Below are positions 30,533 to 46,860 of a stretch of DNA of 64,000 nucleotides, piece by piece. The stretch's first letter is position 1; the number at the start of each line of letters is the position of its first letter. The notes under the pieces were generated by a model. The model worked only from the letters and a program-made list of their open reading frames with translations, was not told the origin of the DNA and ran no database searches. The position numbers and the translations under genes were made by a program. Source of the stretch: Taibaiella chishuiensis (GTDB taxonomy: Bacteria; Bacteroidota; Bacteroidia; Chitinophagales; Chitinophagaceae); NCBI RefSeq assembly GCF_003014535.1, contig NZ_PYGD01000001.1:372001-436000 (forward strand), given 5' to 3'.

Positions 30533-30955
30533 TTAAGGATAGATCCGTACCCGGATCTGCGTAGGGCTGATGATCGAACAGGTTACATAATAACGGATGG
30601 GCGGATTACCCGGGTTAGTCACAAAAAAGGATCCATTCAAGGGGAAAGTGCCGGTGGCGCTGTAGATCGGCGCAATGACCTGCCCTTGCGGATAAGTGCG
30701 TAAAGCCACACCACGCCAATCGGCTACAGTGGCCAGGTAATTGCCGGTCTGCACCACGGGATAGCGGTCCTGGGTCAGGTTATTGACTACATCAATAAAG
30801 TAATTGTTAACCGGTGCGGGCGTCCAGCTCTTGTCCAGCAAGGTAGCTACGAAGTACTGCGGCGTTGTGTTTTCAAAGGTAACCATCATCTGGGCAAACA
30901 GGCCTTTGCCAAAGCTGGTCAGCATAACCAGCAGGATTAAAATTGTTTTTTTCAT
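30533..30955 (-). CDS. Small secreted protein, tandem paralogue B
   Basis: The protein has 140 residues from the Met before the signal peptide (MLTSFGKGLFAQ). The mature part of about 120 residues is beta-rich, with no family I know. It shares with its neighbour at 31052 the opening VTFENTTPQYFVATLLD, the ADWRGVALRTYPQG stretch and the ending CSIISPTQIRVRIYP. No catalytic motif is seen. It may be a surface or periplasmic beta-sandwich binding protein. Both genes point the same way; each has about 100 bases in front for its own promoter. Confidence 0.75.
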   Translation of the reverse strand: MKKTILILLVMLTSFGKGLFAQMMVTFENTTPQYFVATLLDKSWTPAPVNNYFIDVVNNLTQDRYPVVQTGNYLATVADWRGVALRTYPQGQVIAPIYSATGTFPLNGSFFVTNPGNPPIRYYVTCSIISPTQIRVRIYP

Positions 30956-31051
30956 GTTGTTTTTGTTTGGGAGGTTGTGGTATATTTTCAATTATGATCG
31001 GGCGTCGGCGCCGGTCGCGCACCGGGTTCCGCTTTTAAGGCTGGGAAAGGA

Positions 31052-31450
31052 TCAGGGATCTATTCGTACATAAATTTCCGTGGGACTGGTAATGCTGCAG
31101 GTAACGGTATACGTGCCGCCGGGCGCAAAAAGAAAATCGGTAAAGGGCGGCTGATTGAATACGGGTACCGCATCGAGCCAACCGGGGTGGGTTTTGAAAT
31201 GGATACCAAACCAGTCGTTGACATTGGCCAGCGGCTGGCCGGTCTGGACAGTGGCAGGGGTAAGCGGTGCGGCATGATCGGGTACATCGATATAAGTAGT
31301 CTGTGGTGTGCTCCCGTTCCAGTTAATGTCCAGCAGTGTTGCCGTAAAATACTGGGAGGTATTGTTTTCAATTTTCAGCCATATCTGCGCGGAGAGCAGG
31401 GCAGGGTAGCCTGCCAGCAGGGCAAGCAGGATCAGGAGTTTGGTTTTCAT
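31052..31450 (-). CDS. Small secreted protein, tandem paralogue A
   Basis: The protein has 132 residues: a signal peptide (LLALLAGYPALLSAQ) and a beta-rich mature part. It is a paralogue of the product of 30533-30955: IKIENNTSQYFTATLLD-like opening, NDWFGIHFKTHPGW in the middle and CSITSPTEIYVRIDP at the end. I start it at 31450 because the upstream in-frame extension has no signal-peptide character. The function is unknown. Confidence 0.75.
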   Translation of the reverse strand: MKTKLLILLALLAGYPALLSAQIWLKIENNTSQYFTATLLDINWNGSTPQTTYIDVPDHAAPLTPATVQTGQPLANVNDWFGIHFKTHPGWLDAVPVFNQPPFTDFLFAPGGTYTVTCSITSPTEIYVRIDP

Positions 31451-31632
31451 GTAAGCGTTTGTGTTTTTTGGGAGGTTAGGAATACACTTTATGAATAAGA
31501 CGTATATTTTTGAGTCCTGGCTTAGGAACAAATTAAGAGTTTACAATATATTAACACAAAGCAACCGATAACACTTTAGGCTCCCGGTCGGCAAATCCGG
31601 TTGGCGCGACAGTACCACCCGGGCCTAAACCA

Positions 31633-31679: not shown

Positions 31680-32834
31680 TCAGGAGGGCCGTTTGGCATG
31701 GGCCCGCCGCTTCCAGAATACGGCGTCTTTCCAGCGTTGCTCCTGGTTATAAAAGGTATGCTTGTGCTGCACATAATGGTCCCATATCCGGTCCATTTGC
31801 AGCTTATAGTCGTTTTGTACCTGTTCCAGGTATTGCGGATCGTCCAGGGGGGCCTTGCCAGGCAGCAGCAGGAGGTCGGCCAGTTGCAGGGCGCCGGCCA
31901 TAGCATTGAACATGCCTTGCGAGGAAAGCGGGTCGAAGCTCATGGCTGCATCGCCCACGGCGGCCCATTGTTTGCCGGCCACCCTTTTTAACCGGGTAGA
32001 GTTGGCTGCCACCACACCGCAATATTCGACCGGGCCTTCCGCACCGGCCAGGATCTCGGCCATTTCCCGGTTGGCTTGTGCCGCACCGGTAAACCAGGCG
32101 GGATCTTTAACCATTTGCCGGTCGACCAGGTCGGGATCGGTATGCAGGGCCACCACGCTTTTACCACCGGGTACAGGAGCGCTATACCACCAGCCGGATT
32201 CGGCAGCGGAGATCACGCTCATTTGTACTGCCCGGCTGCCGGGCAGTATCGCCCAGTGTGCGACCAGCTTATCATAATGCAGGCGGTTTACGGCCTGTTG
32301 CCGCGCAAATCCCGCAAGACGGCCACTGGCATCCACCACGAATTTCGCGGCAACAGCAACGGGCCTGCCTGCCGCAGGATCGGTAGCGGAGCTTACATGC
32401 AGCCGCCAGCGCGCATTACCGTAGTGGCTGTTCAGCAGTTTCATTCCCCACAGGCATTGTACGCCCCGTGCTGCCGCCTCCGCGCGAAGCCGCCGTTCAA
32501 ATTCCCTGCGGTTCAGGTGCCAGGCAGGGCCATCGGGGTTGCGCAGGTGATCGACAATATGGACCGTTGCACTGCCCCAACAGGAACGGGCGCCCAGGCC
32601 GGGCAGGTACAGGCCCGCTCCGGGATTGGCCGCGATCGGGTCCAGCAGGTTCAGCTTACGCAGTACGCGGCGTGCGGCCGGGGCCAGGCATTCACCTACA
32701 CGCTCTACCGGTTCGGGCAATTTATCGATAAGCAGCACCGAATAGGATGAGGCAAGGGCCATAGCCAGCGTACAGCCGGCTATGCCCCCGCCAACAATCG
32801 CTATGTCGGCCTCATAATAAGCGTCGGTATGCAT
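31680..32834 (-). CDS. LodB-like FAD-dependent maturation flavoprotein
   Basis: The protein has 384 residues with an N-terminal FAD-binding motif (IAIVGGGIAGCTLAMALA, about 10-27), the halogenase-like ERVGECLAPAARRVL segment, FVVDASGRLAG and the second FAD motif WAAVGDAAMSFDPLSSQG. This pattern fits the LodB/geranylgeranyl-reductase/halogenase-like group. LodB-type proteins are needed to form the cysteine tryptophylquinone cofactor of their partner oxidase. The start codon overlaps the stop of the LodA-like gene by one base (TGATG), indicating translational coupling. Its close link to that gene is the main reason for the LodB call over a halogenase. Confidence 0.82.
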   Translation of the reverse strand: MHTDAYYEADIAIVGGGIAGCTLAMALASSYSVLLIDKLPEPVERVGECLAPAARRVLRKLNLLDPIAANPGAGLYLPGLGARSCWGSATVHIVDHLRNPDGPAWHLNRREFERRLRAEAAARGVQCLWGMKLLNSHYGNARWRLHVSSATDPAAGRPVAVAAKFVVDASGRLAGFARQQAVNRLHYDKLVAHWAILPGSRAVQMSVISAAESGWWYSAPVPGGKSVVALHTDPDLVDRQMVKDPAWFTGAAQANREMAEILAGAEGPVEYCGVVAANSTRLKRVAGKQWAAVGDAAMSFDPLSSQGMFNAMAGALQLADLLLLPGKAPLDDPQYLEQVQNDYKLQMDRIWDHYVQHKHTFYNQEQRWKDAVFWKRRAHAKRPS

Positions 32835-35800
32835 CAGCGCCTGTGTACGATTTCTTCGGTGATGAGCGAATAAGGAATATAAGAATGGAAACGGCTGCCT
32901 TTTTCGCCTTCGCCCAGTTCCATACGGGTATAACCCTGTGGTTTCATGGCCAGCGATTTCAGCGGTTTGTTTACTTTAGATTCCAGCATCCGCAATAGCC
33001 GTTTCACCACCGGCGAAGCCTTAAAGTCTTCGGCCAGTTCATGCTCTGTGAGCGACAGCAGGGTTGTTTTCGCGTTGCTCATCAAGTCGCGCTCGGTAAG
33101 CAGGTTTTCTTTAGACAGGTCGTCCAGCGTGGCATGCAGCAGGGGCGCCATTTTACCATGCTCCGCTTTATTCCTGCGACCCATTATGGTTTTCAATACC
33201 GCGCGGGCTTCTTCCAGCAGCATAGCATCCTGCTCGGCATTGGGCACCAGGCCCACCTGCATCGTAGCCGGGAAGGCGGCGCTTTCAGGCACACCGGGGC
33301 GCTGCTGTACTATGGCCAGCTTGTCAAAATACTTGACCATGCTGTTGATCTGGTTGGTATAGTTTGGCGATTGTCCATCGAGCGGCAGGTCGTCGAGCCA
33401 GGCGGCACGATAAGAGAAGGCCTGCTTGCGGGTCTGTTCAGACAGTTCAGGATCCATCGCCTCTTTATAACGTTCTTCGTTCAACAGGTTATTAGGCACC
33501 CGTGCCGGCCAGAAAGTAGGCAGGTACGGATCGTAAGCGGAGGTATAACCGTCGCGGCAGCTTGCCGTATCGGTCTGCCAGGGAATAGCCATCCAGCGGG
33601 TTACGCCACCGGCTACCTGTCCGCCCAACAGCGGTCCTTTAGCCAGGGTAAACACATCGCTGCTCATGGTGGGCCCGTAATAGCAGGTATCGACCAAAGG
33701 CAGTTTAGGTGCGTGTTTCAGGCGGAAGGGCGCCATATACATACCGGCAGTACGCATGGGCCAGGTCATTTCGCAACCAGGGTGGAAGGCATCGGCCAGG
33801 CAGAATTCCATAGCGGCGCGTGTAAGCATATCGGGCTGTTCGGCCACCGGCATTTTATCGATATTCATCGGCGGCGGCACAAAGGGACAGCCTGTGCGGT
33901 CTACATAATCCGCATCGAAATCTCCTTTTACCCACTGGTCCAGGAAGGAGAGCTGCAGGTCGCTCAGGGTTGCATGCTGGCGTACCGACCCGGTGCTGGG
34001 AATGCTGATGGCATCGCCGTACAACCAGGGCCATAACTGCGGCGCATCGGCGCCGGGTATATCATAACGGCGGAAGTTATTGGAGATCGTACGGCGCATT
34101 TCGAGGTTGGCATGCGAAGGGTCGTTCAGCTTCACTTTCCATGCCGAAGTGGTATAGTCGAACTGGCCGCCCCAGCCGAAAGCGGAAGCAAAGCCCGCAT
34201 TTACCCATTGCAGGTTGGTAAGGCGTTCGAAAATAGGCAGGATATCTTTCGTGAACGAAGGGCGTGCAGGCCGGGCCAGCATACCCGCTTTAACGGCTAC
34301 ATCGCGCATCAGGTCCCACATAGTACGTACCGATTTTTGCATGGGCGCATAATCGGGCGGCGCACAGATTACCCAGGCCGGGTCTACTTTCAGCTTTACG
34401 CCTTTGTATACCACCTCGGCAGTAACCGGGCCATCGGAAATATCGTCGTACCAGCCTTCGTTATTGGCAAAGGTAATCGCGATGTCACCATTCAGGTTTT
34501 CCGACAACCCGTGCCCGCCAAGCATGACCAGGCGGCCTTTTTCATCGGTACGCATCTCGCCCAGGTATACTTCCTTACCCTGGAACCGGCCGCGGAACGC
34601 GTATCCTTCATCGATATTTTTGCCGCTTACATGCTGGTCGCCACCGTCGATGATCAGCGAACCGCGATCCTTCACATCGATATTCCTCAGTAAAGAAGGC
34701 GGCGCCGTAGCTGCATCCGGGATATCAAGCGCCATCTGGAACTGGTACCAGGATGATTTCTGGTTGGCCAGGTGCGCATGCCATACGATTTCTGCATCGT
34801 CTGCAGTCAGTTCTTTGATCGCTTTACCCGCCGCGTTAAAGCCGTAGATGCGGAACTGTGCGGCCTGGCGTTTCAAGGCGCCGGTCTGGTCGCGGTAGGC
34901 ATATTCGCTGGTCTGTGGTTCCGGCTCGGTAACCAAAGGCCCTATAAAATATTCCTGTTCGCTGTTACCCACGCGCATTACGCCGATCGGCGGATAGATA
35001 CCTGCTCTTACGATACACTCGCCGTCTTCGTCGGTGTTGCCTTCGAAATGCGGGTTGATGCGCTCCGGCTCCTGGGAGGGCTGCCCGTTGGCCTGGTGCC
35101 TGGTTTGTGCGCTGGCGGCATACACCACTTTTCTTACCTGGGCAATAGAACCCAGGGGCTCGTGTTCGGCCAGGGTACGCCAGATATTAAAGGCCAGCAT
35201 GCTGCCAAATTCGGGCTGACCGATTGCACAGATATCCTGCTGGGGCAAATGCAGCTCCGCAATACAGATATACGGGCTTTGTTCGGTGCTCCATACATCC
35301 TGGGCATCGTCGAGCGGCATCGTTTTAGGATCGGTACGGAGTTGTATTTCGAAGCGGAATTTCGCTTCCTTATTGCGCAGGCGCTGCTCGAGATCCAGGG
35401 CCAGGTAATCGTTATCGTCGAAAGGTGCACCACGATCGGTATCCTCGGGCACCAGGCGGTATTTCACCACCTGGTCGGGGCCCAGTTTAAAAGGCAGGAT
35501 CGCCCAATAGCCGGCACTCAGGCAACTGGCTTCTACCTTGGCCATGGCATCTAAGATGCTGGCCAGTTCGGGATGTTTATTGATATAGGCATTGTAATCG
35601 CCGTCTACCACGCCCGCTGTTGTAAAGGCACACATCTGCTGGGCATCACGCGCGAAGAACCGGTCGATATTCTGGAAGATGAAATCCGCGTTATCGCCTT
35701 CACCGAAGAGCTTGGGACCTTCCACACCGAAGAGCTTTAAACCCAGTCCGAGCGTAGAATGCAGGTCGGGCGAGGTAGGACCGGTATCGCTCGAAAACCT

Positions 35801-36094
35801 GACGGCACATTCGTAAGTGTCGCCGGCGAAAATGCCGACCTTAAATTTCGGATCGATGTCTTTCCGGACCACGAACTTGCCATAAGCAATGCCATGCTGC
35901 TTGCGGAACACAGCGCGCTCCGCGGGCATTTGCCCTTTTTCGATCCGGGTTTTCTGTCCCATTTCCACGAACATCTCTTTGAGACGCTGTGTCACGATCT
36001 TGATCTCGCCATCGCTGTCCCAGCAGACAACGTTATTTGCCGTCGCCTGCGCGGGGGATACAGATAGCCCTTTGTTCTTCGATTTTTTAGCCAT
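32834..36094 (-). CDS. Catalase-like domain fused to a LodA/GoxA-type CTQ oxidase
   Basis: The protein has 1086 residues with no signal peptide (start MAKKSKNKG). Residues about 15-335 look like a catalase-like (y4iL/SrpA group) domain: a candidate distal His67 in KQHGIAYGKF, YECAVRFSSDTG, FFARDAQQ, YWAILPFKLGPDQVVKYRL and FNIWRTLAEHEPLG. From residue 361 it is LodA-like (IYPPIGVMRVGNSEQEYFIG). Cys774 in FHPGCEMTW and Trp839 in IPWQTD are 65 residues apart, the same spacing as the Cys516/Trp581 pair that forms cysteine tryptophylquinone in LodA. LodA-type enzymes oxidatively deaminate amino acids and release H2O2, so the catalase-like part could remove the product. The substrate is unknown. 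Confidence 0.82.
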   Translation of the reverse strand: MAKKSKNKGLSVSPAQATANNVVCWDSDGEIKIVTQRLKEMFVEMGQKTRIEKGQMPAERAVFRKQHGIAYGKFVVRKDIDPKFKVGIFAGDTYECAVRFSSDTGPTSPDLHSTLGLGLKLFGVEGPKLFGEGDNADFIFQNIDRFFARDAQQMCAFTTAGVVDGDYNAYINKHPELASILDAMAKVEASCLSAGYWAILPFKLGPDQVVKYRLVPEDTDRGAPFDDNDYLALDLEQRLRNKEAKFRFEIQLRTDPKTMPLDDAQDVWSTEQSPYICIAELHLPQQDICAIGQPEFGSMLAFNIWRTLAEHEPLGSIAQVRKVVYAASAQTRHQANGQPSQEPERINPHFEGNTDEDGECIVRAGIYPPIGVMRVGNSEQEYFIGPLVTEPEPQTSEYAYRDQTGALKRQAAQFRIYGFNAAGKAIKELTADDAEIVWHAHLANQKSSWYQFQMALDIPDAATAPPSLLRNIDVKDRGSLIIDGGDQHVSGKNIDEGYAFRGRFQGKEVYLGEMRTDEKGRLVMLGGHGLSENLNGDIAITFANNEGWYDDISDGPVTAEVVYKGVKLKVDPAWVICAPPDYAPMQKSVRTMWDLMRDVAVKAGMLARPARPSFTKDILPIFERLTNLQWVNAGFASAFGWGGQFDYTTSAWKVKLNDPSHANLEMRRTISNNFRRYDIPGADAPQLWPWLYGDAISIPSTGSVRQHATLSDLQLSFLDQWVKGDFDADYVDRTGCPFVPPPMNIDKMPVAEQPDMLTRAAMEFCLADAFHPGCEMTWPMRTAGMYMAPFRLKHAPKLPLVDTCYYGPTMSSDVFTLAKGPLLGGQVAGGVTRWMAIPWQTDTASCRDGYTSAYDPYLPTFWPARVPNNLLNEERYKEAMDPELSEQTRKQAFSYRAAWLDDLPLDGQSPNYTNQINSMVKYFDKLAIVQQRPGVPESAAFPATMQVGLVPNAEQDAMLLEEARAVLKTIMGRRNKAEHGKMAPLLHATLDDLSKENLLTERDLMSNAKTTLLSLTEHELAEDFKASPVVKRLLRMLESKVNKPLKSLAMKPQGYTRMELGEGEKGSRFHSYIPYSLITEEIVHRR

Positions 36095-36888
36095 GTGTTT
36101 AGTTTGTATGGGTTTGTGTTTGGTTTGGTTTGCGGGGATCCAGGGACGCAAAGTGCAGAAATTTTAAATTTTTCTTATGCGTATTTATACGTGATTTTGC
36201 GGGCCTGGTTTACAGGATCTAAGGTTTTCCGGGTACAGTCTTAACGGTAAGCAGCCGGGCACCCGGGTAGCGAAATAAGCAACAGCCGGCACGAAGCCGG
36301 CTGCAGCCACCCAAGGCAGCACGATATGCCTTATATCCTGTGTAATGTAGAAGTGATTTATAAATATCAAAAAAATTTAACCATCCTGTTTAAGGGCCTA
36401 GCATTCCTGACGTCAAACACAGGTGTTGCAGCCTCTTTATGATCACTCCCGGAAAACCAGCGGGTGATACCGCTTCTACCCGGCTAAATTAATTTATCCT
36501 TTTAATCTGCCCAATACGATTTATTAAAAATCATAAATTACGTACAACATACATATAAAAACAGGAAATACAGCAACCTTACTAAGGGCAACAGGCAAGG
36601 GCCCGCCATAAGCGTCCGGGGAAATATCTTGCGCCAATATTCAGATAAATAATTATTTTATGTGAGTCAAAAAACTGCAGGGAATCGGGAAAATGCCGGT
36701 AAACGGCATTTAAAATGGCCGGATCGTTCCGGCTGGGCGCATTTTTATCAAAAGGAAGGAAAGACAAAAGAGCAATGGATCGGATCGAAAAAGCCGGCGC
36801 CCGGGTTGCGGGACACCGGCTTTGGTTTACCGGTATTTTTCTTCGTTATCCGCGTGACTTTTAGGTCGACCAGGCGGAAGCGTGTTTA
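36095..36888. other. Intergenic region upstream of the oxidase operon
   Basis: The first bases (36095-36140) are the oxidase leader with repeated CAAAC words on the minus strand. A small palindrome CGTAT-TT-ATACG lies at 36180-36191. The rest is A/T-rich and I find no supportable gene. Confidence 0.4.
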
Positions 36889-37036
36889 TTTTTATCTCGA
36901 TCCATACCGGGCCATGGTCGCTGCTTTTCCCCCAGCCGCGTATATGCCGTTCTACGCCACTGGCTACAGCAGGATGCAACAGGAAGTGGTCGATACGCAA
37001 ACCGGCAGCCGGGAAATCATTATCCCTGTAATGCAG
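36889..37036 (-). pseudogene. 3' remnant of an exonuclease III gene
   Basis: On the minus strand this encodes AGLRIDHFLLHPAVASGVE and RHIRGWGKSSDHGPVWIEIK, nearly the same as the end of the intact gene at 38615 (AGLRIDHFLLHPAVAGRL, RHVRGWEKSSDHGPVWIEIK). The preceding LHYRDNDFPA differs from the intact copy, so it probably comes from a diverged paralogue. About 200 N-terminal residues, including the metal site, are gone. It cannot be functional. Confidence 0.8.
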
Positions 37037-37145
37037 GAAGCCGCAACATGGTGATGCTGCGGCTTCCGGTGGCCGAATAACCGGTTCTTTTCCGGTTGCA
37101 AACCAAGTGGCAAACCAATAACGTACTGCCTGCCAGGTCTCCTTC

Positions 37146-37652
37146 TTATTTTTTATCAAGCTGCAATAACAGCTCATCCAGCTTTTCCAGTGTTGCTATC
37201 AGGCCCTGCTCCATACCCATTTGGATAACCGCTTCCAGGTCGGCCAGCGATTTGTAGGTCACCACCGTTTCTACCAGGGCATTATCCCCTTTATCGGTAA
37301 ATGTAACGCGCCATTCGGCACGCGGCAGGCTTTCATTGATCGTACCTTCGGCATCGCAGAACGCATCGGTAGAGGTATAATAGTCGATAGGTTGTATGGT
37401 ATTATAATCAGTCCACCCCCAGTATTCCGTGCCATTGGGTTCGATCATGGCATAGTGCCAGTGGCCGCCTTCCCGGAAGTCCATCGACTTCGTTTTGGTG
37501 CTCAGGGGCTTGGGGGCAAACCATTGATCCAACAATTCACTTTTGGTATAACAATCCCATACCAGCGCTCTGCCGGCCCGGAATTCCCTTTTTATCGTCA
37601 GGGTATTGTTCACTTTGTCTGTTATAAAATCAAATTGCAGGTTGGGGTTCAT
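37146..37652 (-). CDS. SRPBCC (AHSA1-type) domain protein
   Basis: The protein has 168 residues, one SRPBCC/AHSA1 fold: [32 protein letters not shown] at the start, the [11 protein letters not shown] strand, and a long C-terminal helix ([19 protein letters not shown]). Such proteins bind hydrophobic ligands or act as stress proteins. The gene overlaps the ArsR-type regulator by four bases, a pairing common in bacteria. It is the last gene of the DoxX-ArsR-SRPBCC operon on the minus strand. The ligand is unknown. Confidence 0.87.
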
Positions 37653-38614: not shown

Positions 38615-39385
38615 TTATTTGATCTCGATCCATACCGGGCCATGGTCGCTGCTTTTCTCCCAGCCACGTACATGCCGGTCTACGCCACCGCCTGTCAGGC
38701 GGCCGGCTACAGCGGGATGCAACAGGAAGTGGTCGATACGCAGGCCGGCATCACGGCCATAGGCATTGCGGAAGTAATCCCAGAAGGTATAAACGACCTC
38801 ATCGGGATACAGCTTACGGATCGCATCCGTCCAACCGGCTTCCGTTAACCGCTTAAAGGCATCGCGTACCCCGGGTTGAAAAAGGGCGTCGTTAAGCCAG
38901 CGCTCGGGTTTATAAACATCTATGTCGGTAGGGATGATATTGAAATCGCCGATCAGCATGGCCGGCGTCTCCGCTTTCAGCAAGGCTTCCGCTTTTTGTT
39001 CCAGTCTTTTGATCCAGGATAGTTTGTAGTCGTACTTCGGCCCCGGAAAGGGATTGCCATTGGGCAGGTACAGGCAACAGATCCGGATGTTATTAACCAT
39101 AGCTTCGATATAACGGCTATGCAGGTCTTCGGGGTCGCCGGGCAGGCCGCGTTCCGTTTCGGTAAGCTCCAGGCCGCGCGCCAGGATGGCGACGCCGTTC
39201 CAGCTTTTTTGTCCGTGCCATACCGCCTGGTAACCGGCGGCCAGCAAGTCCGCTTCCGGAAATTTTTCCTGGGGCGCCTTTAGTTCCTGCAGGCATACCA
39301 CATCGGGTTTGGTTTCGTTAAGCCATTGCAGCAATACGGGCAGGTGCCCGTTTACGCCATTGATATTATAGGTTGCGATTCTCAT
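38615..39385 (-). CDS. xth: Exodeoxyribonuclease III
   Basis: The protein has 256 residues and is complete for the family. Metal and catalytic segments are in order: MRIATYNINGVNGH (Asn), CLQELKAP (Glu), SWNGVAIL, YLPNGNP (Tyr/Asn), LIGDFNIIPTDIDV (Asp/Asn), GLRIDHFLLHP (Asp) and SSDHGPVWI (His). It is an AP endonuclease and 3'-5' exonuclease of base-excision repair. I start it at 39385, because the residues upstream are not conserved in the family. A broken second copy of its 3' end lies 1.7 kb away beyond the ArsR operon. Confidence 0.93.
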   Translation of the reverse strand: MRIATYNINGVNGHLPVLLQWLNETKPDVVCLQELKAPQEKFPEADLLAAGYQAVWHGQKSWNGVAILARGLELTETERGLPGDPEDLHSRYIEAMVNNIRICCLYLPNGNPFPGPKYDYKLSWIKRLEQKAEALLKAETPAMLIGDFNIIPTDIDVYKPERWLNDALFQPGVRDAFKRLTEAGWTDAIRKLYPDEVVYTFWDYFRNAYGRDAGLRIDHFLLHPAVAGRLTGGGVDRHVRGWEKSSDHGPVWIEIK

Positions 39386-39539
39386 AAACAGGCATTTTAA
39401 GCGGGAGCGGATCCCGGTTTTAAAGGTACAACTTGCCGGGTACATATAGGCGGCCGGTGTTCCTGCTTAGTGATTGTACGTTGCCGTTGCGGTGTTTAAG
39501 CGACGAACGCTGCGTTGACAAAAAAAATTTTACGTGTAA

Positions 39540-43682: not shown

Positions 43683-44693
43683 TCAATTTTTTAGAGACTG
43701 CTTTTCTTTATTGAAAAAATGATTTTCAGCACTTTCCTTATAGGTGTCGATATTTTCCAATTTCATGCAATGCCTATAACAATTTAAGTTTAGCGGGTCT
43801 TCCAAGGGATGAAGTATCATTTCATGCTTTCCTGATAAGGAGTCAAATTCATGTTTGGAAAATTGTGTGCCGAATAGTTGTTTCCTACCTGTATTTACAC
43901 AAATCCTATCATACAAGTAGGCATAATTTCGCCTATTGGTATTGTGTGTAATTACACTTGTCTCCATCATCTTCAATCCTAGTATTTGCAAGGGTACATT
44001 TTCATCTGAATGTTGCAATAGCAACCAAAACTTACGATCACCATCTTTCCCAACCAAAGCGTAGCCGGGCCAAGTTTTGTATTGAAAAAGCACCTTTTCA
44101 ACGAAAATAGAATTGATGCTATCGCTATGTCTCAGGGCTAAATAATGCTGATTATATCTAACTGTATCCTTATTTTTCAGGGAATCCAGATATGGTATAT
44201 TCACGCTCCTTAAAAGTGAATCCTGCGTAAAATGATTTGCTATTTGTGCTATCAAATCCATGTCGTTTTTATGGCCTGAATTTTGATTGAACGCCTCTTT
44301 TATGATATTGTTTCTGATGGAGTCGAAAATCAAAAAATCCCAAACATTATAGCCTTCTATATTATTCAATCCCCTCACCAGGGCAGTTCGAATATATCTG
44401 TAAGCATTGTTTTTATCCTTTGTGTAAGCGCTGTAAAATAGTCGCACATACAACTCATAATCATATTTTGAAGCATATCCACTATCAATGATTTGGTCAG
44501 ATAGTTGAATTACTGCGTTATACTTCCCACTATTGTAGCATGAGTCGATTTGGCAAAGGGTGTTAATTTCTTGCTTTGAAAAAAGGGGGCTTAATGTTTG
44601 CCCATCCGACTTATTTAAAACACCCAATATAAGAACAATTAGAATCGATAATCTATTTATAATTTTAGTTCCATGTAGCAGTATAAGGATCAT
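43683..44693 (-). CDS. DUF6624 protein at the grasp-with-spasm locus
   Basis: The protein has 336 residues. The N-terminal hydrophobic segment (about 12-28, RLSILIVLILGVL, then SDGQ) is a probable signal peptide. The C-terminal half matches the DUF6624 pattern: TWPGYALVGKDGDRKFWLLLQHSD, then YAYLYDRICVNTGRKQLFGTQF. The start overlaps the SPASM gene by 29 bases, so it belongs to the operon. DUF6624 has no established activity. A periplasmic role on the exported peptide is a possibility, not shown. Very A/T-rich. Confidence 0.7.
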   Translation of the reverse strand: MILILLHGTKIINRLSILIVLILGVLNKSDGQTLSPLFSKQEINTLCQIDSCYNSGKYNAVIQLSDQIIDSGYASKYDYELYVRLFYSAYTKDKNNAYRYIRTALVRGLNNIEGYNVWDFLIFDSIRNNIIKEAFNQNSGHKNDMDLIAQIANHFTQDSLLRSVNIPYLDSLKNKDTVRYNQHYLALRHSDSINSIFVEKVLFQYKTWPGYALVGKDGDRKFWLLLQHSDENVPLQILGLKMMETSVITHNTNRRNYAYLYDRICVNTGRKQLFGTQFSKHEFDSLSGKHEMILHPLEDPLNLNCYRHCMKLENIDTYKESAENHFFNKEKQSLKN

Positions 44694-45687
44694 AGGAGCA
44701 TTTTTGAGGCTTTGAAAATATGTCTGAAGGATTTTCGATATATACTCTACAGTCCGGGCATATCATCCGAAATTCGCACACGCTACACGTTTCAATCTCT
44801 TCTTTTTTGATATGCCAGAATTTGGTAAAATGATTATTGCAAACAACATCGTAAATATCTGTATCATCAATGCTTCCGAATGTTGTTTCTGATGAGGGAC
44901 AGTTTCTAATATAACCAGTTACATCAACCCCTATTTTCTTATTCAAACAGTTATTAAACTTCAATGTCTCCATGTAAAAATGAATATTCGAATTGAAATA
45001 TTCCGGGTTGATAACCCCACAACAAGTTTTATCCTTTACAGGTGTAAGGATAAAAACATGAGTAGAAAAATAGGTTATTGCGTTTTTCACTTCAACAATC
45101 TTCTCTAAAGGAGACGAATGAAAAGTTACTTTTTGAATTCTAGAAAATTTGGAGTGTAGACTATTTATAAATTCTTCGCAGCCATCACTATACGGAATGA
45201 GCAACGCTACATATTCTATAGAAGTTTTAGATACCTGGCTATATAAAGCTTCTATAAATGAAAAGGGTACACTATCAAACAATCGAATTTGCAGGGCTTC
45301 GACTTTGAACTTGTCGATTTTTTCAATTGCGGAGAGAATATTGTAGGTGCTTTCTTTGTCGTAATCCAGTATTGCATTTGTCAATAAGAATGGATGTTCC
45401 CATCGTTCTTCAATTGGGGGAAACAGCTCCTTATTAGGGGAAATATGCCCCCACTCGTCCTCTAATAATCTGGATATATATAATAGTATGCCTTCTTTTT
45501 CTTCTTCGTTCTGTTTAAGAATTAAATTTACAGGGCTATTTTTCAACTCCATTAAGATATCGTAAAGCAAATTGGGTATTATCTTGTATCTGTTCAAATA
45601 AACATCACATATAGTAGATTGAACCGGCCCCTTTACTAAAAAGCAATTTGAAAACAAAAGAAAAAACTCATTATTGTTAAAGGTCAT
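44665..45687 (-). CDS. gwsS: Grasp-with-spasm system SPASM-domain peptide maturase
   Basis: The protein has 340 residues. The C-terminal SPASM-type Cys cluster (about 295-330) is clear: ETCSVCEFRMICPDCRVYIE and a last Cys in PQKCSYDPYT, plus CPSSETTFGSI upstream. The N-terminal two thirds resemble a radical-SAM barrel in length, but no CxxxCxxC motif is present, so ordinary AdoMet cleavage is unlikely. This is the described character of the grasp-with-spasm SPASM protein. It lies between the ATP-grasp/small-protein pair and the DUF6624 gene. It probably binds iron-sulfur clusters or the precursor; the reaction is not known. Confidence 0.82.
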   Translation of the reverse strand: MTFNNNEFFLLFSNCFLVKGPVQSTICDVYLNRYKIIPNLLYDILMELKNSPVNLILKQNEEEKEGILLYISRLLEDEWGHISPNKELFPPIEERWEHPFLLTNAILDYDKESTYNILSAIEKIDKFKVEALQIRLFDSVPFSFIEALYSQVSKTSIEYVALLIPYSDGCEEFINSLHSKFSRIQKVTFHSSPLEKIVEVKNAITYFSTHVFILTPVKDKTCCGVINPEYFNSNIHFYMETLKFNNCLNKKIGVDVTGYIRNCPSSETTFGSIDDTDIYDVVCNNHFTKFWHIKKEEIETCSVCEFRMICPDCRVYIENPSDIFSKPQKCSYDPYTATWN

Positions 45688-45689
45688 AA

Positions 45690-45875
45690 TTAATAGACTC
45701 TTGAAATGTGTTTAAAATAATCTTTCTGTATTTGCACATAGCCATGCGTGTCTATTCTGTAAACAACCGGCAACAAAGGTTCATCCGCAACTTCGGTGGC
45801 GAGTATATAAGACAATGGAATATGCTCCAGTGAGTTTTTCTCTTCCTCTACTAAAATTTCAATTAATTTATTCAT
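45690..45875 (-). CDS. Small 61-residue protein between the ATP-grasp and SPASM genes
   Basis: The start overlaps the end of the ATP-grasp gene by eight bases and the stop is two bases before the SPASM gene, so the frame is packed tightly into the operon and is very likely real. The 61 residues have an acidic N-terminal helix (NKLIEILVEEEKNSLEHI), a Pro/Val middle (DEPLLPVVYRIDTHGYVQI) and a basic end. It has no signal peptide or Cys. It could be a peptide-recognition or chaperone subunit for the precursor. I do not recognise the family. Confidence 0.7.
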   Translation of the reverse strand: MNKLIEILVEEEKNSLEHIPLSYILATEVADEPLLPVVYRIDTHGYVQIQKDYFKHISRVY

Positions 45876-46860
45876 GCATTAGAAAGTTTGAAATTTTTTC
45901 TTCTAAATAATAATTGCAGGGATATGAGACCATCCCAAATTGACCGACAGGATTCACTTCTAAAAAGTAATATTTCCCATTAGTCGCATAGATAAAATCC
46001 AATGAACCGGAATTAAGCCCCATTGCTTTCATAAACGTATCAATTCTCACCTCTATATCGGAAGGTAGTTTATAGGGAACTCTTCTGTTAGGTCTATTGT
46101 TATCATAGTTTCTGAAATCAATCGTGGTTTTGTCATTCCTTTGGGAAAACATTGCCATAGAATAACAAATCCCATTTAAATAGAAGGTTCTTATCTCGTA
46201 TTGCTTCTCAATATATTCCTGAAAGAACGACGGGAAGAAATGCTCTCCTAATTTCTCAATAAAGGTTTCAGAAATTAAACTGGTGAAAGGAACGTATGTT
46301 TTGTGTCGAATGGAAATCGATCTTATATTGTAAAGAGGTTTAACTATAATTTTGCCGCATTTCTGCTTGAATGAGATCAGATGTTTTTTGTTGTTTGTTA
46401 TCATATGACCAGGTATATCGAAGCCTAGTTTCTTTGCAGCAACTAATTGATCAATTTTATTGATATTGCTATTAACAGGTCGGTTAAGCCATTTTGATTC
46501 ATCAGGTACAGTGTTTGCAAGAACATTTTTTAGGGAATGTTTTTCATTCACGACAAAGCCTTCTACTTTGGCTTTCATAGCCGCTCTTTCTTCATTTGCA
46601 GAAGTAATATTTATAGCTACGGAGGCAAAAAAGCGCCTGTACCATATTTTTCTAATTTGATTACTATTTATTTCTTGCCCATTGATGACAAGGCTGAATA
46701 ATCCTTGAGAAGATGAGGAAGAGTCTGAATAAATGAAGTCTACTCCATTCGACTCAAAATCGAAATCATTTAAACGTATCCAAGCCTTTCCTTTACTCTC
46801 TATCCAATTAATTACAACTGATGTGGATGTATCTGTGTGGTCAGAAACTATTAAGATCAT
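45868..46860 (-). CDS. gwsG: Grasp-with-spasm system ATP-grasp peptide maturase (graspetide ligase)
   Basis: The protein has 330 residues. It shows the graspetide-ligase plan: ILIVSDHTDTSTSVVINWI at the N terminus, KWLNRPVNSNINKIDQLVAAK before the ATP-grasp fold, ATP-binding KIIVKPL, FQEYIEKQYEIRTFYLNG, and the Mg-binding LDFIYATNGKYYFLEVNPVG with Asp, Glu and Asn ligands. Such enzymes activate Asp/Glu side chains as acyl phosphates and join them to Ser/Thr/Lys as ester or amide macrocycles. The precursor gene lies 73 bases upstream with a hairpin between. The small protein and SPASM genes overlap or abut downstream. Confidence 0.88.
   Translation of the reverse strand: MILIVSDHTDTSTSVVINWIESKGKAWIRLNDFDFESNGVDFIYSDSSSSSQGLFSLVINGQEINSNQIRKIWYRRFFASVAINITSANEERAAMKAKVEGFVVNEKHSLKNVLANTVPDESKWLNRPVNSNINKIDQLVAAKKLGFDIPGHMITNNKKHLISFKQKCGKIIVKPLYNIRSISIRHKTYVPFTSLISETFIEKLGEHFFPSFFQEYIEKQYEIRTFYLNGICYSMAMFSQRNDKTTIDFRNYDNNRPNRRVPYKLPSDIEVRIDTFMKAMGLNSGSLDFIYATNGKYYFLEVNPVGQFGMVSYPCNYYLEEKISNFLMHE

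Follow-up and report, generated by a model that had tools for sequence, protein, structure and literature searches.

In a 64,000-nucleotide stretch of the Taibaiella chishuiensis genome (contig NZ_PYGD01000001.1, positions 372,001 to 436,000; hereafter the window), a single minus-strand gene (32834..36094) encodes a protein of 1086 aa made up of an N-terminal catalase-fold domain, a LodA/GoxA-family oxidase and a helical C-terminal tail. By alignment, the fused domain keeps the heme side of a catalase, and its distal catalytic residues are swapped for others that are near-invariant among fusions. The explanation that we tentatively prefer overall is that of a cysteine tryptophylquinone (CTQ) oxidase carrying a heme domain which would act on the products of the oxidase by a reaction other than that of catalase.

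The reading frame opens with an ATG at 36094 and its stop codon ends at 32834. A first-pass annotation, made from the letters of the window, had proposed this frame with the same coordinates and length, and both are correct, the strand being minus. Residues are numbered here from the ATG; the longer version P0001, from a TTG start, adds 19 residues, so that its numbers are higher by 19. A scan of genome contigs with the fused query found 231 encoding stretches, and the best 80 were kept, a selection from which no frequency can be derived; with the window they form the 81 loci referred to below. All 80 kept relatives, which come from Bacteroidota, Pseudomonadota and Acidobacteriota, are fused, with the match beginning at residue 38 or earlier. 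A chance frame or an artefact of annotation or assembly is ruled out by the presence of both parts in 80/80 retained loci, and the fusion is intact in two genomes of the same genus and one of the same family. Among the kept loci, frames are broken in L051 and L089, and L087 runs off its contig. Together with L162 (G661 contig 346), L051 and L089 were noted as fusion copies with a broken or truncated frame.

The Catalase-Fold Domain and Its Probable Heme Pocket

Residues ~32-345 (35060..36001, minus strand) form an N-terminal domain of the y4iL/cd08152-like kind, and for residues ~32-350 a catalase fold is supported by structural modeling. The AlphaFold2 model, built from an alignment of 50 fusions that leaves out L087, has a mean predicted local distance difference test score (pLDDT) of 75.5; per 10 residues the N-terminal domain mostly scores 83-95, with lower values at residues 51-70 (69, 76), 291-300 (59), and 331-340 (67). 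In VIA-align comparisons the domain matches the coral allene oxide synthase (AOS)-lipoxygenase 3dy5 (Z 25.8, root-mean-square deviation (rmsd) 3.8, 292 residues aligned, model residues 6-354), the 33-kDa protein of M. avium paratuberculosis 3e4y (Z 25.7, rmsd 3.4, 277 aligned, model 32-335) and beef liver catalase 4blc (Z 24.3, rmsd 3.3, 277 aligned, model 57-346). The catalase-fold entries listed for it span Z 23.8-25.8 and rmsd 2.9-4.0 over 271-292 aligned residues. The matches to 3e4y and 4blc, with both LodA profiles over their cut-offs, bear out the first-pass description of a catalase-like domain fused to a LodA-type oxidase. The profile matches it had anticipated were found in part: PF17990 and PF18417 are over cut-off, and the catalase profile PF00199 falls below it (6.1e-4, 19.4 bits with a cut-off of 25).

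The proximal side of the pocket is that of a catalase. The ligand motif Arg321-x3-Tyr325 (35120..35134, minus strand) is present in 99/99 fused sequences and includes the proximal tyrosine for which a check had been proposed. Heme-side residues are kept throughout, with R60 in 98/98 and R99, R321, Y325, and R332 in 99/99. Because this motif and the heme arginines are retained, the domain probably binds heme. The 99 fused sequences comprise the 81 from the window and genome scan and 18 from other searches; they are not 99 independent genomes, since some genomes occur twice and L101-L106 are re-fetched genomes already among the 80. The broken frame L051 is without the R60, F63, and H67 columns.

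The distal side is different. Phe63 (codon 35906..35908, minus strand) occupies the column of the catalase distal His and is Phe in 98/98 fused sequences with the column, Gln141 (codon 35672..35674, minus strand) occupies that of the distal Asn in 99/99, and M154 is found in 98/99. Judged by catalase structures, F63, Q141, and M154 line the distal pocket, where they would replace the His, Asn, and Phe/Tyr of the catalase family. The placement comes from a weak phmmer alignment with Helicobacter KatA (E 0.003), which sets F63 opposite the His in ERVVHAKG and Q141/N142 opposite the two Asn that open NNTP. The same placement is obtained in a multiple alignment that takes in ordinary catalases as well as standalone ones, in which K_L132, K_L137, and four of five L145 rows were ignored as non-homologous frames. 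With the FF pair as anchor, Gln141 lies on the first N of NNTPxFF. This N is taken as the catalytic Asn because the spacing from the distal His matches that of human catalase: 73 residues separate H56 from the first N of NNTP in the Helicobacter chain, and 73 separate His75 from Asn148 in the human enzyme. With the distal His replaced by Phe and the distal Asn by Gln, the usual catalase route to H2O2 removal has no support here, and the domain is probably not a classical catalase. Next to a monofunctional heme catalase, then, the proximal Arg-x3-Tyr and the heme arginines are present, and the distal His, the distal Asn, and a PF00199 score above cut-off are absent.

Relatives without a LodA part look otherwise at the distal column: 36/37 such rows have His, one has Asn (L158), and none has Phe. 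These 37 rows come from a search of two classes with an alignment of fused and standalone rows, plus earlier loci; they include ~11 ordinary catalases, L161/L177 and L146/L194 are the same gene each, and L162 was left out. That search matched 21/229 and 16/240 genomes of the two classes, fused members included. L162 has Phe in the distal column and is the broken copy of a fusion mentioned above. The proximal Tyr column holds Met in L155, L156, and L160. The first-pass annotation had proposed His67 as the distal heme His; the catalase column is that of Phe63, and H67, found in 97/98 fused sequences (one Asp), stands four residues downstream. This candidate was set aside, as many relatives not fused to LodA have the same second His plus the first. 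The motifs of two plasmid-borne fusions, VFRKLHG in Azospirillum oryzae and VFLKPHG in Rhizobium leguminosarum, can be set beside LHPKSHG of a standalone Nostoc protein. N142 is present in 96/99 fused sequences.

The coral AOS domain (hereafter cAOS) offers a further comparison. It has heme-coordinating R64, R102, and R360, distal T66, H67, and N137, and proximal Y353 (PMC5617202). The spacings R60-x2-F63 and Y325-x6-R332 of the fusion equal R64-x2-H67 and Y353-x6-R360 of cAOS (PMC5617202), and in place of the distal set T66/H67/N137 the fusion has V62/F63/Q141.

Is the N-terminal domain then a decaying catalase? Over 50 fusions, mean pairwise identity is 0.64 in the heme domain, 0.66 in the oxidase, and 0.23 in the C-terminal tail, and the identities of heme domain and oxidase are correlated with r 0.96 over 1225 pairs. 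Since the heme domain changes only slightly faster than the oxidase, these comparisons give no clear sign of decay. F63, S102, D103, Q141, M154, and R306 are among the residues that never vary in the 50 fusions and that none of 7 standalone relatives shares. A distal pocket that is different yet invariant suggests selection for a chemistry of its own rather than decay.

The LodA-Type Oxidase and Its Predicted CTQ Residues

The oxidase region extends over residues ~362-950 (33245..35011, minus strand). It matches LodA_N (PF17990, 8.8e-78, 261.6 bits, cut-off 26.3), the only such match in the genome, and LodA_C (PF18417, 2e-38, 131.9 bits, cut-off 25). The equivalog models are not reached, with 415.6 of 750 bits for GoxA (NF038173) and 169.5 of 600 for LodA (NF038172). 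The model of residues 362-951 aligns with the GoxA variant F316A (6vmw_B) at Z 33.4 and rmsd 3.1 over 555 residues, and with LodA (2ymw_B) at Z 26.7 and rmsd 3.7 over 507, both by VIA-align. An adjoining lodB-like flavoprotein gene, as expected of a LodA/GoxA family member, is also present.

In LodA the cofactor is formed from C516 and W581 (PMC4417212). Numbered from 1, the 3weu LodA sequence has C516 at the end of QADFFNC and W581 as the second W of YWWPPQSP; the window equivalents are WQTDTASC846 and PTFW862PARVP, and the stretch matched to 3weu ends at P0001 866 and chain residue 517, which puts Cys846 (P0001 865) on chain residue 516. The predicted CTQ pair is therefore Cys846 (codon 33557..33559, minus strand) with Trp862 (codon 33509..33511, minus strand), on LodA C516 and W581, respectively. 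Both residues are present in 60/60 LodA-family rows having the columns, fused or not. Cys774 and Trp839 had been put forward as the pair in the first-pass annotation, on the ground that their spacing of 65 residues equals that in LodA. The assignment does not stand: W839 is found in 61/61 LodA-family rows and C774 in only 43/61, the real spacing in the fusion is 16 residues, and the agreement at 65 is a coincidence. C846/W862, D842, and H771 are invariant in 50/50 fusions, and D842 corresponds to the conserved Asp at GoxA D678 and LodA D512. On these residues the protein is very probably a CTQ oxidase, in which the cofactor would be formed and the oxidase would be active. At the positions of GoxA Y766/H767, none of the 41 fused rows has Tyr or His, so the substrate is not assignable from GoxA. 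Residues 833-864, which surround the CTQ pair, have pLDDT <50, and the model says nothing on CTQ geometry.

The next gene (31680..32834, minus strand, 384 aa) encodes a LodB/GoxB-like maturase dependent on flavin adenine dinucleotide (FAD), and its start overlaps the fusion stop (TGATG). It scores 210.1 bits with the LodB model and 208.9 with the GoxB model, below the equivalog cut-off of 400 in each case. A LodB-like gene lies downstream of the fusion in 75/81 loci, with distances that range from -46 to 651 bases and have a median of 4. Six loci are without this LodB cluster: L067, L068, L087, and L094, in which the available sequence stops at or near the fusion end, and L085 and L092. Besides LodB, no cluster of neighbors occurs in >15/81 loci, the clusters being counted and not annotated. 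Inspection of the sequence revealed no obvious signal peptide at the N-terminus of the fusion, and the enzyme is therefore probably cytosolic.

Distribution and History of the Fusion

Among the best 80 of 231 stretches, the nearest named relative is that of Taibaiella koreensis, with 86% identity. Even within the genus the distribution is patchy: the fusion occurs in 2/3 other genomes and is absent from G003. In the phylum of the window, LodA_N was matched in 10/395 genomes, with 8/12 matches fused, the window's included. One class had LodA_N in 10/369 genomes, with 10 matches (one below cut-off) of which 2 are fused, and another had it in 13/385, with 5/15 matches fused; in each class one of the fused matches is the center of the set.

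In a tree of the oxidase part only (62 rows), all 41 fused rows fall in one clade (SH-aLRT, the Shimodaira-Hasegawa-like approximate likelihood ratio test, 99) together with 4 unfused rows. The tree carries SH-aLRT support only, with a midpoint root and several long branches, and on it the fused and unfused labels change 3 times, at least 2 of them by starred branches; 0/500 shuffles gave a number as low. Several independent fusions are thus disfavored, and since the label changes are few, one gain of the catalase-fold domain followed by few losses is the simplest reading that fits the tree. In the unfused members nested among the fused rows, the CTQ residues are still present, as is a LodB-like gene. 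No detached catalase-like gene was found beside them at E < 1 within ~5-6 kb on either side at the 4 loci.

Campillo-Brocal et al. (2015; PMC4417212) list in their Table 3 21 LodA-like proteins with pfam00199/cd08152, all of group III, and state that to their knowledge no group III protein had been characterized, calling for experiments. The catalase-LodA architecture is therefore not new, and the window holds a further example of it. The first-pass remark that no characterized member was known agrees with searches of the open-access literature, in which none was found among the titles listed (at most 30 per search); the fusions as such had already been in print, uncharacterized. PMC4699246 and PMC12605379 contain, in their available parts, nothing on catalase-LodA fusions. 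A search of the literature for distal-His mutants of catalases likewise gave nothing of use. The group III fusions of 2015 share the architecture, length, and lodB neighbor of the window protein, which differs from them only in coming from another species (PMC4417212). Two Table 3 strains were recovered with equal lengths, Tenacibaculum ovolyticum DSM 18103 (1061 aa, L034) and Flavobacterium soli DSM 19725 (1072 aa, L073), and both group III fusions fall within the clade of the window. The fused proteins were reported not to cluster in one subgroup (PMC4417212), whereas in the present tree a single clade holds all 41 fused rows and 4 unfused ones. No mention of the lost distal His was found in the available part of PMC4417212. 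Such fusions appear in the plasmid gene table under the name 'LodA/GoxA family CTQ-dependent oxidase'.

Possible Roles of the Heme Domain

In the sequence of events that we propose, the LodB-like flavoprotein from the overlapping gene would help to make the Cys846-Trp862 CTQ in a group III LodA-family oxidase, which would then convert an amine or amino acid and O2 to H2O2 and an imine/aldehyde or keto product. The N-terminal domain, with a Tyr325-ligated heme b in a catalase fold and a distal pocket rebuilt as Phe63/Gln141/Met154, would act on H2O2 and/or the reactive imine by a heme reaction that is not that of catalase. Product-coupled heme chemistry of this kind is a guess by analogy, with somewhat less than an even chance of being right. 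The strongest analogy of layout is that of coral AOS-lipoxygenase (AOS-LOX) and hydroperoxide lyase-lipoxygenase (HPL-LOX), in which an N-terminal catalase-fold domain converts the hydroperoxide made by the C-terminal lipoxygenase (PMC5617202). The coupled peroxidation raised in the first-pass annotation is possible. A stronger form of the proposal, that the Phe-Gln-Met pocket was set before the fusion spread over at least 3 phyla and marks a distinct heme catalyst with a novel catalase-fold reaction on H2O2 and/or imine, is rather doubtful.

Several observations weigh against product-coupled chemistry. Within the fused clade, at least one loss of the domain seems to have occurred (L116/L117/L119, perhaps L107), and the CTQ residues and LodB-like gene of the nested unfused members suggest that the oxidase itself can do without the heme domain. 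Invariant positions are fewer in the heme domain (41/310) than in the oxidase (123/589). Peroxide may be a poor reactant for a Tyr-ligated heme that has no acid-base residue on its distal side, which would favor a non-catalytic role. The reaction of coral cAOS uses its distal His (PMC5617202), a residue missing in the fusion. The stretch 51-70, with its lower pLDDT, holds Phe63, so that the model is less sure there, and H67 or N142 could in principle assume the distal role.

The idea that the fusion removes its own H2O2, as first suggested, would make the N-terminal domain a working catalase that protects the oxidase to which it is joined. The catalase fold, the proximal Arg-x3-Tyr, and three heme arginines would suit this, the partner family makes H2O2 (PMC4417212), and the window's genome (G000) has no PF00199 match over cut-off and a KatG-like protein only. 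However, the distal His is an invariant Phe and the distal Asn an invariant Gln, whereas 36/37 rows without a LodA part have the His; the two same-genus genomes that carry the fusion also encode canonical catalases, one and two in number; and H2O2 is not scavenged even by coral cAOS, in which none of these residues is missing (PMC5617202). Self-protection of this sort is improbable. A heme module without catalysis, serving as scaffold, oligomerization unit, or gas or redox sensor for the oxidase, deserves more weight and is nonetheless unlikely: replacement of both distal catalytic residues and the lack of the domain in some close relatives speak for it, but the distal positions are invariant and not drifting, and the identity of the domain keeps pace with that of the oxidase.

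Two further roles would tie the heme to the quinone cofactor itself. In quinohemoprotein amine dehydrogenase, c-type hemes take electrons from reduced CTQ. This enzyme provides a precedent for CTQ and heme together (PMC7876137), and a pocket lined by Phe and free of acid-base groups would be better suited to passing electrons than to peroxide chemistry, so that the fusion might work as a quinohemoprotein with dehydrogenase or mixed behavior. The fold match, however, is to catalases, and no conserved partner is seen among the neighbor clusters counted; we consider this reading very unlikely. Alternatively, the heme domain could help to make the cofactor, as di-heme MauG completes tryptophan tryptophylquinone (TTQ; PMC7876137), but unfused members of the same clade have both the CTQ residues and a LodB-like gene although the domain is missing, and 0/4 of those examined have a detached copy within ~5-6 kb, which leaves a part in CTQ biogenesis highly improbable.

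GoxA (glycine oxidase; 6byw, 6vmw) and LodA (lysine oxidase; 2ymw, 3weu) share with the fusion the fold, the CTQ Cys/Trp, and the Asp, and unlike it they are without a catalase domain. Coral AOS-LOX (3dy5) and HPL-LOX have, as the fusion does, an N-terminal catalase-fold heme domain and a C-terminal peroxide-producing enzyme, but their heme domains keep the distal His and Asn and are joined to a lipoxygenase instead of a quinoprotein. Standalone y4iL/cd08152 proteins and 3e4y share the fold and proximal motif, and often the His in the H67 column; the standalone members examined are not fused to LodA and keep the distal His save one, which has Asn. A second precedent for the layout, with a catalase-like domain N-terminal to another enzyme domain, is L159 (G549, contig 91), in which a y4iL-like catalase domain with its distal His kept precedes an animal haem peroxidase domain (PF03098, 1.3e-69, 235.7 bits).

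Other Observations in the Window and Its Relatives

The KatG-like frame of G000 is 773 aa long and has two PF00141 domains. At two of three Acinetobacter loci (L097 9912-11060, L100 9235-10203), the flank downstream of the fusion also encodes a standalone catalase-like protein, which has the distal His and a signal resembling that of lipoproteins. A tblastn search of phage records with the N-terminal domain matched CAKLQH020000055.1 and CAKLQF020000010.1, filed as Acinetobacter phage, at 32% identity; the product is annotated as Catalase.

The LodB-like gene is closely followed by a tandem of frames for two small proteins that resemble each other and look secreted (30533-30991 and 31052-31531, minus strand); they do not cluster with frames near the other 80 fusion loci. 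On the other side of the fusion, the frame 36827-37177 (minus strand) is an altered repeat of the last part of the protein at 38615-39445 (minus strand; RIDHFLLHPAVA...SSDHGPVWIEIK), as if the 3' end of that gene had been duplicated; its product is presumably exonuclease III-like. Further along, 43683-46860 (minus strand) encodes, one after the other, a DUF6624 protein (28.8 bits, cut-off 27), a Cys-containing protein of 340 aa for which Pfam gave no match, and an ATP-grasp protein of the MvdD type (PF21068; 28.8 bits, cut-off 27), a trio which we take to resemble a peptide-modifying set of the grasp-with-spasm type.

Implications

The corrected CTQ assignment matters in practice, as the residues named before would have sent mutagenesis to the wrong positions. 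An invariant non-catalase distal pocket was not found in print and merits a bench test, for which the residues make a sharp prediction: heme should be bound, and classical catalase activity should be absent or weak. If the proposed product-coupled chemistry is true, the fusion would amount to a natural cascade of amine oxidase and heme enzyme in one chain, would add a new reaction to those of the catalase fold, and would provide a ready-made two-step biocatalyst.

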